64,000 nt of DNA. It comes from Planctomycetota bacterium. Its GTDB lineage: Bacteria > Planctomycetota > Planctomycetia > Gemmatales > Gemmataceae. The position numbers and the translations under genes were made by a program. Every line of letters starts with the position of its first letter. Position 1 is the first letter of the stretch. Shown here piece after piece: positions 25,833 through 37,491 of this stretch. The notes beneath the pieces are model-generated. The model did not search any database, had not been told where the DNA came from, and saw only the letters and a list, made by a program, of their open reading frames with translations. The stretch lies in contig VGZI01000005.1 of the NCBI GenBank assembly GCA_016872605.1, positions 1 through 64,000 of the forward strand, written 5' to 3'.

Positions 25833-25914
25833 GACGCCCGGAATCTCCAGGAATCGCGGTGCTCAACTTGAGACTCGATGGGAATGACCGAGACGGTGCG
25901 CGACCGAAAGAAAG

Positions 25915-25995
25915 ATCGCTTTCCCACGCCGGCATGATCCGGATCAGGTCCCAGGGTTTGCTCTCAGTTCGCGGTAAGCGGACACCCCTAGCGAT
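25915..25995 (-). promoter_or_regulatory. TPP riboswitch (THI element)
   Basis: On the minus strand the conserved core is complete: GGGGTG, CTGAGA, ACCCTGGGACCTGATCCGG, ATCATGCCGGCGTGGGAA. Closing P1 arms ATCGCT (25995-25990) and AGCGAT (25920-25915) pair perfectly. About 80 bases separate it from the first gene, enough for an expression platform. Binding of thiamine pyrophosphate should lower expression of the downstream unit including thiC. Confidence 0.93.
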
Positions 25996-26083
25996 TACGA
26001 TTAGTTTATGCGAGCACGCAGCGCAAGCAAGTGCGGACAGCGGCCGCTTGCGTTGGGTCACACCATCTGGTACAGTCGTTGTC

Positions 26084-32018: not shown

Positions 32019-33419
32019 TCACGCCACGATTTCATCAATCACATGCCCGTGCACATCGGTCAGCCGGCGGTCGATGCCATTGTGGCGGAAGATTAGGCGT
32101 GTGTGGTCGATGCCCAAAAGGTGCAGGATCGTGGCGTGGACGTCGTAACAGTAAGTCGAATGCTCGGCAGCGCGGAAGGACCATTCGTCGCTTGAGCCGT
32201 AGGTGACGCCGCCTTTGACGCCGCCGCCAGCCAGCCAGGTCGTGAAGGTGAACGGGTTGTGATCGCGGCCCAAGCTCCCCTGACTGCACGGCATCCGGCC
32301 GAACTCGGTCGTCCACATCACGATCGTGTCGTCGAGCAAGCCGCGGCGCTTCAAATCCTGAAGGAGCGCGGCGGTCGGGCGGTCCATGCTCGTGCCCATG
32401 TCGTAGTGATCGCGTTCGAGATGTTCGTGCGAATCCCAATTGCGGCGGGGGAAGCCGTTGTCGGCGCCGGACCAGACTTGCACGAAGCGGACGCCGCGCT
32501 CTAATAGACGACGCGCGATCAGGCAATGGCGGCCGAACTCGGCGGTGATCGGCTGATCGAGCCCGTAAAGCCGCTGCGTCTCGCGCGTTTCGCCCGAGAT
32601 GTCGAGCACTTCAGGTGCGCTGAGTTGCAAGCGGGCGGCAAGCTCGTAGGTCTGAATCCGGCCCTCAAGCCGCGTGTCGCCGGGACGCGTCTCGGCGTGG
32701 CGACGGTTCATCTCTTGCAGCAGACGCAGGCCGTCCCGTTCGCTATCGGGGGTGATGTAGGTGTTCGGGCCGGGGAAAAGATCGAAGATCGGATTGCGGT
32801 CGCTCGGGCGTATCGTCGTACCCTGGTTGCTGGCGGGGAGGAAAGCGCTCGACCAGTTGGCGGGGCCGTTCGGAGCGTAGCCTCGCGAATCGGGGATGAC
32901 GACGAACGCGGGGAGGTTGTCGGTCATCGAGCCGAGGCCATAGGTGATCCAGGCGCCCATCGAGGGGAAGCCCGGCAGTACGAAGCCGGTGTTTTGCATG
33001 AAGGTGGCCGGCCCATGCACGTTGGAGCGTGACACCATCGACGGGATGAAGGCGATGTCATCGACGCAGGAAGCGATGTGAGGCAGGAGATCGCTGATCC
33101 ACTTGCCACACTGGCCGTGCTGCCGCCAGCGCCACGGCGATTGCATGACGTGGCCAGGGTTGGACTGAAACAGTTCGACGCGTCCGCCCGGATCGAACGC
33201 CTGCCCGTTGCGCCGAATGAGGGCCGGCTTGTAATCGAACGTGTCGCATTGGCTCGCGGCTCCGGACATGAAGAGTTGGACGACGCGCTTGGCCGGCGCG
33301 TTAGCCCGACGCGCAAGCGAGGGAGTGTGTGCGAGGAGCCCGTCATCGCCCAGCAGCGCCGCGAGCGCAATGCCGCCCAGGCCGCCGCCGTACTGCCAGA
33401 GGAAATCGCGACGATTCAT
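32019..33419 (-). CDS. DUF1501 secreted protein
   Basis: The 466-residue protein starts with a Tat-like signal (MNRRDFLWQYGGGLGGIALAALLG), then typical DUF1501 segments: QLFMSGAASQCDTFDYKP, DDIAFIPSMVSRSNVHGP, ARRLLERGVRFVQVWSG, TIVMWTTEFGRMP and GRDHNPFTFTTWLAGGGVKGG. DUF1501 is related to the alkaline-phosphatase/sulfatase fold. In planctomycetes it is usually paired with a DUF1549/DUF1553 cytochrome-like gene, which is absent here. Start 33419 begins at the signal motif. Confidence 0.92.
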   Translation of the reverse strand: MNRRDFLWQYGGGLGGIALAALLGDDGLLAHTPSLARRANAPAKRVVQLFMSGAASQCDTFDYKPALIRRNGQAFDPGGRVELFQSNPGHVMQSPWRWRQHGQCGKWISDLLPHIASCVDDIAFIPSMVSRSNVHGPATFMQNTGFVLPGFPSMGAWITYGLGSMTDNLPAFVVIPDSRGYAPNGPANWSSAFLPASNQGTTIRPSDRNPIFDLFPGPNTYITPDSERDGLRLLQEMNRRHAETRPGDTRLEGRIQTYELAARLQLSAPEVLDISGETRETQRLYGLDQPITAEFGRHCLIARRLLERGVRFVQVWSGADNGFPRRNWDSHEHLERDHYDMGTSMDRPTAALLQDLKRRGLLDDTIVMWTTEFGRMPCSQGSLGRDHNPFTFTTWLAGGGVKGGVTYGSSDEWSFRAAEHSTYCYDVHATILHLLGIDHTRLIFRHNGIDRRLTDVHGHVIDEIVA

Positions 33420-33668
33420 TCGAGTGATCTCGCAAGCCGCCGATACTCTGTACTCTGTACTCGGTACAGTGTCGTCCCGGCTCATCATATCGCGAATCGG
33501 AACGAAAATCCGCCGACCGACGCCAATTGGTGATTGCACTTCTCGCCATCGCCGTCTACACTCAACCTCGCCCCCCAAAAGACACCGGTCGCTTACGCTT
33601 CCGGCTCTGATGCCGGTCGCTTACGCTCCCGGCCTCGCCATCACCACACTTTTTTGAAGGAGCCACTC

Positions 33669-34373
33669 ATGCGTCTCGCACTCGTTCCGCTCGCCATCCT
33701 CGCCGTCGCCTTGACCACCCGCGCCGGCGACGACTTCAAGCCGGAGCCCGGCTACGTGAGCCTGTTCAATGGCAAGGACCTTGCCGGCTGGAAGTACGGC
33801 AAGGAAACCGACCTCGCCGGCAAAACCGAAACCGCCGACAAACGCTTCCGCGTCGCCGACGGCATCATCGTCGCCGAGGAAGGCAAAGGCATCAAGGATC
33901 TCTATACCGTCAAGGCATTCAACACCGAATTCAACCTGAAGCTGGAATTCCGCGCCGCCCTCAAGGCCGACAGCGGCGTCTATATCCGTGGCCCACAACT
34001 CCAGGTCCGCGACTTCATCCGCCGCGGCGAGATGAAAGGCAAACTCACGAAATTCAAAAACGATGGCTGGAACGAACTCGACATCACCGTGAAGAACGGC
34101 GTCGTCACCACCACCGTCAACGGCAAGGCCCTCACCGAGAAGGATTCCCTGGCCCTGAGCGTCGAGAATGGCAAACCGATCGCGATGCTCAATGGCAAGT
34201 CGGTCGACATCAACAAGATCGAGTGCAGCGTCGGCGCCGTCGCTCGCTGCCTGTGCAACGGCGAACTCATGGAGAACATGAAGATCCCACAAAAGAGCGG
34301 CCAAGGCATCGGCCTGCAAGCCGAGACCGGCAAGTTTGAGTTTCGCCGCATCCGCGTCAAAGAAATGCCGTGA
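33669..34373 (+). CDS. DUF1080 (3-keto-disaccharide hydrolase domain) secreted protein
   Basis: The 234-residue protein has a signal peptide (LALVPLAILAVALTTRAG) and the DUF1080 fold, a concanavalin-like jelly roll. It begins with YVSLFNGKDLAGWKYG, followed by FNLKLEFRAALKADSGVYIRG and ending with GIGLQAETGKFEFRRIRVKEM. The ATG at 33669 has AAGGAG upstream; the frame before it runs through GCTTACGCTTCCGGC repeats. It likely acts on or binds sugars outside the cytoplasm. Confidence 0.9.
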   Translation: MRLALVPLAILAVALTTRAGDDFKPEPGYVSLFNGKDLAGWKYGKETDLAGKTETADKRFRVADGIIVAEEGKGIKDLYTVKAFNTEFNLKLEFRAALKADSGVYIRGPQLQVRDFIRRGEMKGKLTKFKNDGWNELDITVKNGVVTTTVNGKALTEKDSLALSVENGKPIAMLNGKSVDINKIECSVGAVARCLCNGELMENMKIPQKSGQGIGLQAETGKFEFRRIRVKEMP

Positions 34374-34515
34374 CGTTCACCACAATCGCATGCCCACGAA
34401 GCCGAATTGTGAGCGGCGCGAACCATCCGAATCACACGGTTGCCTGACCGCCGATGTCGTCGCGCCGCGACGGGTCGATTGACTGTGCAGGCTCGACGCA
34501 GCCTGTGCATAAAAA

Positions 34516-34541
34516 AACCCGCAGTCTCACGACTGCGGGTT
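34516..34541 (-). terminator. Terminator of the thioredoxin-like gene
   Basis: An 11-bp perfect stem (AACCCGCAGTC/GACTGCGGGTT) with a 4-base loop is followed on the minus strand by seven T (34511-34517). It lies between the convergent DUF1080 and thioredoxin-like genes. Confidence 0.85.
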
Positions 34542-34561
34542 CAGGAGGTGGGCAGGCGTTT

Positions 34562-35533
34562 TCATTTGCCGCGTGGGCCGCGATTGTTCCAGGGGAACGG
34601 ATCGACGACTTCGACAGGGAGCGTCGAAATGCGCTCGCCGAGGATGCCTTCGAAGACGGAGGCATAGACGCGATCGATCTTGGCCATCGAATGGGCGGCC
34701 ATCAGCGTGTGGACCTGGCCTTGCGTGGAGAGCACCCAGCGACGGCCAGCTTTGTCGGCGGCAGCCTTGGCGAACGGAGCACCCTTGTTCTGTGCTTGCG
34801 TCGCTTCGAGCTGGGCGCGGAACGTCACGTCCGGCCCGTCGATCGGCGCGGGACGGAGCACCGGAGCGAGCGGCTGGCCGGTTGGGTCGCGATACTGAAT
34901 CGCGTCGTTGGGGTTCTGCGGTTCGGGCGGATCGAACGTGATCGGTTCGACCGTCAGGCCGTGGTCACGGCGTAATTTCTCGGCGTGGGCGGTCCGCATG
35001 GCGATCTTGAACTTGCCGCCGTCGCCTTTGCTGTCGGCGATGGCTTTTTTGGTGGTCTCGATGATCCACTGGGCTTCGGCCATGAATTGTTGAGCGTTCA
35101 CGGGCCCAGCCACGGCGTGGAGCACCCGGCCGTCGGGAGCGCAGAAGTAGCAAGCGACGTTGCCGCCTTGTTTTTGCTTGCCAACGATGCGGAAGGTGCC
35201 GACGCGTTGGAAAGCGGAGACGAAATACTTGTCGACGTATTCGCCGACCTTCTTGTCCGCCAGAGCGTTCACACGGAGCGCTTCAGCGTTGTTTCAGGTA
35301 TAGTCCGGTTCTTCGAAGTAGCCGGAAATGTGGATGGCCAGGACGAGCTTTTGCTCTTTGGCAGCCTTGGCGGCCGCGTCCTTGACGCTCTTTTCAAAGT
35401 GAACGTTCGTTCCATGATCGCCGCAGGTTTCGGGAACTAACCCCGGCTTCTTCAATCCGCCTGTCCAGCCCGGCGAGGCGGCCAGCGCCAACGCCAACAG
35501 GCCGAGGACGGCACCACGCAAATACGATCGCAC
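34562..35533 (-). CDS. Secreted thioredoxin-like protein with in-frame TGA (selenocysteine candidate)
   Basis: The frame is continuous from the GTG at 35533, which has AAAGGAGG six bases upstream, to 34562, except for one TGA at 35294-35296 (codon 80). The N-terminus has a signal peptide (LRGAVLGLLALALAASPGW). Residues 50-170 look thioredoxin-like: KEQKLVLAIHISGYFEEPDYT, then TGA, then NNAEALRV ... VGEYVDKYFVSAFQRVGTFRI. Protein-like sequence continues unchanged on both sides of the TGA in the same frame. Either selenocysteine is inserted, or this is a point nonsense mutation or sequence error. A stem-loop just after the TGA is described separately. The C-terminal half is of unknown type. Confidence 0.72.
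35259..35287 (-). promoter_or_regulatory. Possible SECIS-like hairpin after the in-frame TGA
   Basis: Six bases after the TGA, GCTGAAGCG can pair with CGCTCTGGC (eight of nine positions counting two G-U pairs) around an 11-base loop. Position and size are close to bacterial SECIS elements, but the loop lacks a G in its first two positions, which those elements normally have. Confidence 0.3.
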
Positions 35534-35638
35534 GTTTGACCTCCTTTGCAATTCTCTGATTGAGATCATCGTCAACAAATAAGACGAGCGAGAGTCGCTT
35601 TTCGATTGACGCTTGCCAAAATAACTTTGGTGTTTAGC

Positions 35639-35706: not shown

Positions 35707-37491
35707 ATGCCGCAGATCATTCGAATCGCAACGATCATTCTACTGACGCTGACTGCTGGCTGTCGGCGCGACGCCGGCAAGTCACAGAACGACTCCAAGC
35801 CGGCCGACACCATCACCTCGAAAACGGGTGGAGAACTCGTGCTCGTCCCCGGCGGGTCCTTCACCATGGGCGATGCCGCCGGACGTGAGGACGAAACGCC
35901 GCACCCCGTGACGGTGTCGGCGTTTTACATGGATAAGCATGCCGTCACGCAAGAGCTTTACACGAAGGTCATGGGAACCAATCCGTCGAAGCATGTCAAT
36001 GTCAAGTGCCCCGTCGAACGCGTGCAATGGATCGACGCGGTCCGCTTCTGCAACAAATGCTCCGAACTCGACGGGCTGACGCCGTGTTACAACACCGACA
36101 CGTGGGACTGCAATTTCGCCGCCGACGGATATCGCCTGCCGACGGAAGCCGAGTGGGAATTCGCGTGCCGAGCTAGAGGAACCGGACGCTTTTGCTTCGG
36201 CGACGACGAAAAGGAGTTGCCCAAGTACGCCTGGCTTTATCCGGACTCGAAGGGCAAAACGCATCCGGTCGGCGAAAAGCTGGCTAACAGGTTCGGCCTG
36301 TACGACATGCATGGCAACGTGTGGCAATGGTGCCATGACCGCTACAGCGATTCGTACTACAAGCAAAGCCCCAAGGACGACCCGCGCGGCCCGACGACCG
36401 GCGACAAGCGAGTTTTGCGCGGCGGCGCCTGGGACACCAAGGCGGAGAAATGCCGATCCGCCTATCGTCACAAAGATTTTGCCGTGCTCGCCGACCTCTG
36501 CTTCGGCACCGACCCCTACGGCTTTCGGAGAGTGCGCGCCATGGACGCAACACCTCGCGGCGCCATGGCGGCGCTTCGTGGTGCGACGCTCCGCGTCGCA
36601 TTTCACGACGCGAAGCGTCGGGCCACGTTGTCGCTAAATCAATTATCGTTTGTCAGCACGGGCGCCGAAGACGAGAAGAAAACGCTGCCCAAAGGTAAAC
36701 CCGACGCCGCCAAACTCAAAGGAACCATCATCTTCGTCAGCGATCGCTCCGGTTCGCTCAAGATCTGGAGCATGGATGCGAGCGGCAAAAACGCCAAGCA
36801 ACTCACCAAAAGCGAAGGCCCCGATGCAGACCCGCGTTTCTCGCCCGACGGCAAACTCATTCTTTACACCACCGTCGTCGGCGGATTCCCCGAAGTCTGG
36901 GTCATGAATCGCGACGGCTCGCAACCAAAAAAAATCACCACCGGACGCGAAGCGAGCTGGGCCCCCAACGGCAAATCGATCGTCTTCATCAACGACAACC
37001 AAACCTTCGTCCGCGACCTCGACACCGGCAAGGAACGCCTCGTCACCCCCAAGGACTGGGAACGCTGCGGCGTCCCCGCCTTCAGCCCCGACGGCAAGAC
37101 CATCGCTGTCGCCAGCCGGCATCTCCCCAAGATCGGCATCTTTCTCGTCGATCTCACCGGCAAGCCACTCGGCCAACTCAAAACCGAGGAAGCCTGCTGC
37201 ACCCCCGCCTGGTCCAAAGACGGCAAGCGAATCCTCTGTCAGTCCGACAAAGGCCATATCCACGAAGTCCGCGTCGACGGCAAATCGGACGAGCAAATCA
37301 CCACCCGCCCCGACGTCCAGCACGACGCTCGCTATTCCCCCGACGGCACGATGTTCTTGTTTTGCCGGGCGCCAACGCCGAAAGGTCCCTGGCAGATTTG
37401 CGTCCAGCGCATCGACGGCGATGAGGACGATTTTGTGGTGCTAACAAAGGAAGGCTCGAACCAGTCGCCCGATTGGCACGCGCATGAGTGA
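35707..37491 (+). CDS. Lipoprotein with formylglycine-generating-enzyme-like domain and TolB-type propeller
   Basis: The 594-residue protein has a lipoprotein signal (IILLTLTAGC, Cys19). A SUMF1/FGE-sulfatase domain spans residues 40-280 (VPGGSFTMGDAAGRED; RLPTEAEWEFACRARG; GLYDMHGNVWQWCHDRY; RVLRGGAWD). A PD40/TolB-like propeller runs from about 335 to the end (FVSDRSGSLKIWSMDASGKNAKQLT; FSPDGKLILYTT). The join contains a palindromic insertion (residues 291-307). GAGGAA precedes the ATG. The domain may bind or modify sugars or proteins; the fusion's job is unknown. Confidence 0.85.
   Translation: MPQIIRIATIILLTLTAGCRRDAGKSQNDSKPADTITSKTGGELVLVPGGSFTMGDAAGREDETPHPVTVSAFYMDKHAVTQELYTKVMGTNPSKHVNVKCPVERVQWIDAVRFCNKCSELDGLTPCYNTDTWDCNFAADGYRLPTEAEWEFACRARGTGRFCFGDDEKELPKYAWLYPDSKGKTHPVGEKLANRFGLYDMHGNVWQWCHDRYSDSYYKQSPKDDPRGPTTGDKRVLRGGAWDTKAEKCRSAYRHKDFAVLADLCFGTDPYGFRRVRAMDATPRGAMAALRGATLRVAFHDAKRRATLSLNQLSFVSTGAEDEKKTLPKGKPDAAKLKGTIIFVSDRSGSLKIWSMDASGKNAKQLTKSEGPDADPRFSPDGKLILYTTVVGGFPEVWVMNRDGSQPKKITTGREASWAPNGKSIVFINDNQTFVRDLDTGKERLVTPKDWERCGVPAFSPDGKTIAVASRHLPKIGIFLVDLTGKPLGQLKTEEACCTPAWSKDGKRILCQSDKGHIHEVRVDGKSDEQITTRPDVQHDARYSPDGTMFLFCRAPTPKGPWQICVQRIDGDEDDFVVLTKEGSNQSPDWHAHE
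36577..36627. repeat. In-frame palindrome inside the SUMF1-TolB gene
   Basis: Arms 36577-36598 and 36606-36627 match over 22 positions with three mismatches around a 7-base loop; each arm contains CGACGCT(C/T)CGCGTCG. It is read in frame as RGATLRVAFHDAKRRAT, exactly between the two domains. The core GACGCTCCGCGTC resembles the CACGCTCCGCGTG core of the priA and htrA elements. Confidence 0.75.

Follow-up and report, generated by a model that had tools for sequence, protein, structure and literature searches.

The question raised by this locus is whether a TGA that interrupts a protein-like reading frame should be read as a stop codon, as an error or recent damage to the gene, or as a codon for an amino acid. 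The window, by which we mean the whole stretch of 64,000 nucleotides that was analysed, contains on its minus strand a gene at positions 34562..35533 with 323 codons plus a stop, and the only internal stop in frame 1 of this gene is the TGA at codon 80 (35294..35296). A sequence-only reading had proposed that this codon specifies selenocysteine (Sec). The comparative evidence given below strongly supports that proposal, and we estimate the probability that Sec is inserted at codon 80 of a thioredoxin-fold protein at roughly 0.93. The gene can thus be described, on the basis of its homologs, as encoding a very probable thioredoxin-like selenoprotein, presumably secreted, in which a single TGA is read through.

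The gene itself has the parts which the sequence-only reading had reported. The TGA does interrupt a protein-like frame, with coding-like sequence on either side; a strong Shine-Dalgarno sequence (AAGGAGGT, 35539..35546, minus strand, by direct reading) precedes the GTG start at 35531-35533; and the gene is closed by an intrinsic terminator with a 12-pair stem and a T run (34515..34542, minus). The first 24 residues, VRSYLRGAVLGLLALALAASPGWT (35462..35533, minus), look like a signal peptide when read by eye. They are followed by a thioredoxin-fold domain, probably of the DsbH type, at residues 35-175 (35009..35431, minus), in which Sec80 takes the place of the nucleophilic Cys, and by a C-terminal region of residues 176-323 (34565..35008, minus; e.g. 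ILGERISTLPVEVVDPFPW) which is conserved within the main subfamily. The true stop at 34562..34564 (minus) is a TGA as well, and among homologs the final stop codon is TGA in 16, TAA in 13 and TAG in 8 cases. About 0.05% of random sequence of the same GC content would remain open across the 243 codons that follow the TGA at codon 80. Stronger evidence than this chance of ORF length is that, in homologs of 40-85% identity, the reading frame is conserved both before and after the TGA.

Searches for homologs covered 40 relatives and a sample of 297 genomes of the class. In a protein search, the matches that span codon 80 have one TGA, which is shared by the close homologs with the exception of one paralog (L053, G020:C201). 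The codon was TGA in 52 of 52 extracted copies of the UNNA type, obtained with a pattern that also admitted Cys, Ser and Ala, and neither TAA nor TAG was found at the position in any homolog. Two paralogs within the source genome (G000) carry a TGA at the same position (L052, G000:C229:3303-3716, plus strand; L055, G000:C75:26076-26567, minus strand). A profile search further revealed distant planctomycete subfamilies in which UNNAEALR is replaced by UTNARLAR, USAGHSLRAV, USAAHAMR or UNAGQLMG, with the TGA falling in the same HMM column as codon 80. A count gave 72 distinct copies with TGA, to which a later reading added five; the 72 were obtained with a pattern that required TGA or the known Cys motif and therefore do not give an unbiased rate. 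The paralog L053 has Ser at the Sec column, and is possibly decayed or has a different function.

Pairs of Sec- and Cys-containing homologs are the classical criterion for recognizing selenoproteins. Alignment of homologs, which had been proposed as a check on the TGA, gave a conserved in-frame UGA at codon 80 and a Cys codon (TGC) at the Sec column in four remote relatives (L097, L101, L121 and L122, uncharacterised proteins of planctomycetes), where the surrounding sequence is SCANSRFF or SCANSRYF. Among the close homologs no Cys form was found; the Cys forms are restricted to these remote relatives. Two of them, L097 and L101, have a long C-terminal region, and for these two proteins a comparison with Pfam and NCBIfam yielded no credible assignment.

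The sequence-only reading had also located a SECIS-like stem past the TGA, in the range 35259-35287, and a hairpin that covaries and under which synonymous variation is constrained indeed lies within this range, at 35265..35281 (minus), which is nt 13-29 past the UGA. Its sequence is GCGCUC-CGUGU-GAACGC, with an apical loop CGUGU (35271-35275, minus) that has G at loop position 2, and with one C-A mismatch at the fourth pair that is also present in 23 of 49 homologs. The family consensus over the same nucleotides is GCGYUC-CGUGU-GRRYGC. Among 22 distinct sequences, picked for diversity from 49, 94.7% of the cells of the stem were paired and 11 cells were changed on both sides, and none of 500 shuffles matched the observed pairing or covariation score; for an additional outer pair (12-30), covariation fell short of significance (p 0.19). 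Codons +5 to +9, which encode conserved amino acids, had a relative codon entropy of 0.09-0.31, as compared to 0.91 ± 0.21 (sd) elsewhere in the gene, and the choice of codons beneath the hairpin is narrow, with CTC for Leu in 38 of 39 and CGT for Arg in 45 of 51 cases.

The USAG and UTNA subfamilies possess a separate stem of six pairs at nt 18-35, of which 99.2% is paired and which was reached by none of 500 shuffles. Both stems carry a CGUG loop, whose first base is a first codon position in one subfamily but a third codon position in the other; because of this different codon phase, it is the RNA that is conserved and not the peptide, which is the behaviour expected of a SECIS element. The selD gene of the source genome has a hairpin after its TGA too, with a different loop (GGUCC). 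In the model of the bacterial SECIS element, the main requirement is a G within the first two positions of the loop, and such a G is present in all three hairpins, i.e. the main stem, the USAG/UTNA stem and that of selD.

Insertion of Sec requires that the host has the apparatus for it, and the sequence-only reading had pointed to selA, selB, selC and selD as the genes to look for. All four were found in the source genome, a draft assembly of 372 contigs that is 93% complete: it encodes a tRNA-Sec (72.9 bits; anticodon TCA, i.e. UCA, according to ARAGORN), SelA (579.8 bits), SelB (368.3 bits) and SelD (345.8 bits; L024, G000:C92, minus strand). The selD gene has an in-frame TGA of its own, in SCAGUAGKL, and is itself a selenoprotein gene. 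In the sample of the class the family was found in 47 of 297 genomes. A selA gene above the cut-off occurs in 43 of these 47, as compared to 116 of the 250 genomes that lack the family (Fisher p = 2e-9, in a test that treats genomes as independent of ancestry), and the remaining four bearers (G022, G148, G233 and G264) have selB over the cut-off. With selA or selB in 47 of 47, the Sec trait is present in every genome that bears the family. When two genomes with a Cys form were checked for selB, one of them (G434) had none above the cut-off.

These observations bear on three other explanations of the TGA. The first is that of an ordinary Cys protein with a nonsense mutation or sequencing error, since a lone in-frame stop in a single gene of a 372-contig draft often reflects an error or a decayed gene. 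Such an accident would hardly recur as the same TGA in dozens of independent genomes, leave the frame intact before and after it, and place the synonymous codons past the TGA under constraint; the conservation of the TGA at more than 70 distinct loci refutes this explanation, and we give it virtually no weight. That the TGA is a real stop, followed by a separate gene which is re-initiated at the GTG at 35270-35272, would fit with the output of an ORF finder, which reports ORFs of 94 and 236 aa. A single thioredoxin-fold domain would then be cut in two at its nucleophile, where the remote relatives simply continue with Cys. Moreover, a real stop need not always be TGA, whereas neither of the other stop codons occurs at this place, and in the class sample the family is confined to genomes with selA or selB. 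Two genes are thus a very improbable description of the locus.

The third explanation accepts that the UGA is translated, as some other amino acid, by genome-wide reassignment or by non-specific read-through. Some bacteria have reassigned TGA to Trp or Gly, so the idea has precedents. Of the 22 ORFs in the window that have 400 codons or more, 10 end in TGA, as does the selenoprotein gene itself, which indicates that the codon is not reassigned; a dedicated tRNA-Sec together with SelA, SelB and SelD is encoded by the genome; and the remote relatives have Cys at the position, not Trp or Gly. We consider an amino acid other than Sec highly unlikely at codon 80, and the following discussion proceeds from Sec insertion.

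The suggestion that the protein is thioredoxin-like was a guess when made from the sequence, and comparisons of profiles and of structures now support it. When the single protein sequence was compared with Pfam, NCBIfam and the PDB, nothing useful came up, and searching the PDB with a profile brought chance matches only. Since AlphaFold gave a poor model of the whole protein (pLDDT 45), the domain of residues 35-175 was modelled alone, giving a mean pLDDT of 73 and a pTM of 0.73. The model, which has a shallow alignment behind it, is poor near the Sec loop, with domain residues 43-53 below pLDDT 50. The best Foldseek match was 7tkv, a Thioredox_DsbH protein (E 8.6e-4), and AGR3, 3ira and DsbH came next. 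VIA-align gave Z values of 10-11 against thioredoxin-fold and DsbH-like chains; it re-examined the list produced by Foldseek, so that the absence of a chain carries no meaning. In an HMM-HMM comparison (hhalign) with DsbH-family proteins of the same and related genomes, a probability of 94% and an E value of 1e-7 were obtained, and in this alignment Sec80 is opposite the first Cys of CHWC, with the second Cys opposite Ala. The Foldseek matches to 7tkv, 3ira and 2ju5, together with the hhalign result and the moderate-confidence model, provide good support for a predicted fold of the DsbH type.

It is of interest to compare this domain with established families. Proteins of PF03190 (DUF255) and PF13899 (Thioredoxin_7) have the same order of fold elements and the same helix plus (F/L)xDPxV...NxxF block past the active site. 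In the window family UxxA stands in place of their CxxC, the active site of the window protein being U-N-N-A, and the window protein differs further by an insertion of about six residues before Sec; aligned with thioredoxin, it has GNV at the position of the cis-Pro motif. The gathering score of PF03190 or PF13899 was reached by none of the members scanned, the best relative having E 1.6e-4 and 22.1 bits as compared to 27, and the window protein gave no match to PF03190. Because the scores of the Pfam DsbH model are below threshold, the family is not filed under PF03190. The eukaryotic ER proteins AGR2 and AGR3, which came up as structural matches, have a thioredoxin fold of the same subtype and an active site CxxS with one catalytic Cys; they have no Sec, and their relation to the window family is structural, with none shown at the sequence level.

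The catalogued thioredoxin-like selenoproteins (Trx with UxxC; VPGUxxT, NF041383; Trx7/PDZ, NF041199; HUIPC, NF047660) share with the window family the presence of Sec in a thioredoxin-like fold by means of UGA and a SECIS element. The selenoprotein models of NCBIfam release 20.0 gave no match to the window protein at E values up to 1 and none reached its cut-off; for the members of the family there was no credible match either, one UTNA member reaching NF041383 at 13.8 bits with a cut-off of 275. A catalogue of 119 prokaryotic selenoprotein families that appeared in May 2026 contains no UNNA, UTNA, USAG or USAA motif (PMC13188914, Table 1). The genes thus apparently form an uncatalogued family of planctomycete thioredoxin-like selenoproteins with an unusual UxxA active site.

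From these data a mechanism can be envisaged. SelB and Sec-tRNA(UCA) would bind the hairpin 13-29 nt past the UGA, Sec would be inserted at codon 80 in the motif T-U-N-N-A, and the second, terminal TGA would end the protein. Export is probable and has good support, the signal peptide having been read by eye. The selenol, with which the active-site helix begins at its N-terminal end, would most likely attack disulfides or oxidised substrates such as peroxides outside the cytoplasm. Since the resolving Cys of CxxC is replaced by Ala, resolution of the selenenyl or selenenylsulfide intermediate would have to come from a different conserved Cys or from an external thiol. Candidates are Cys131, in the motif YFCAPDG (55 of 74 sequences), and Cys37 (43 of 74); the role of Cys131 is doubtful because in the predicted topology it is at the end of a beta-strand. 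We read the protein as a secreted mono-selenol oxidoreductase, with a catalytic cycle that we infer, and lean slightly to an exported disulfide or peroxide reductase.

A paper from 2016 reported Sec genes and some selenoproteins of planctomycetes, and in Gemmata obscuriglobus the complete set of genes for insertion (PMC4807772); the selenoprotein list of that paper is in its supplement and may name a relative of the window family. In the open literature on planctomycete selenoproteins, no description of the family was found. According to the paper on deep-Sep from 2025, Cys homologs now seem to exist for every known selenoprotein, and the method may miss selenoproteins that lack them (PMC12013277). 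The finders for bacterial selenoproteins that are now in use filter by Cys-containing homologs, and since the Cys forms of the window family are confined to a remote branch, it would probably be missed by such a method. Furthermore, its genes are easily annotated as two broken ORFs. With this family the selenoproteome of Planctomycetota gains an exported redox branch, and SECIS recognition can be tested in the phylum on a clean case. The family also raises the question what the role is of a thioredoxin fold with UxxA in place of CxxC. It is somewhat more likely than not that the genes belong to a large superfamily of DsbH-like thioredoxins in planctomycetes, exported and mono-selenol, of which a genome has several genes; Sec would be its normal state, and Cys forms rare and remote. 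If this is true, discovery pipelines that demand Cys homologs would remove the family, and it could be a main reason that the lineage keeps the Sec system.

A comparison of the gene neighbours in the window with related loci showed no conservation, so that no operon partner can be named and the surroundings give no hint on the substrate or redox partner. The divergently oriented gene at 35707-37491 (plus) encodes an FGE-sulfatase (formylglycine-generating-enzyme-like) domain fused to a WD40-like PD40 beta-propeller, and the genes on the other flank, at 33534-34373 (plus) and 32019-33578 (minus), encode a 3-keto-disaccharide hydrolase domain (PF06439) and a DUF1501 protein. Elsewhere in the window, a TPP riboswitch aptamer is present at 25904-25999 on the minus strand (61.7 bits).
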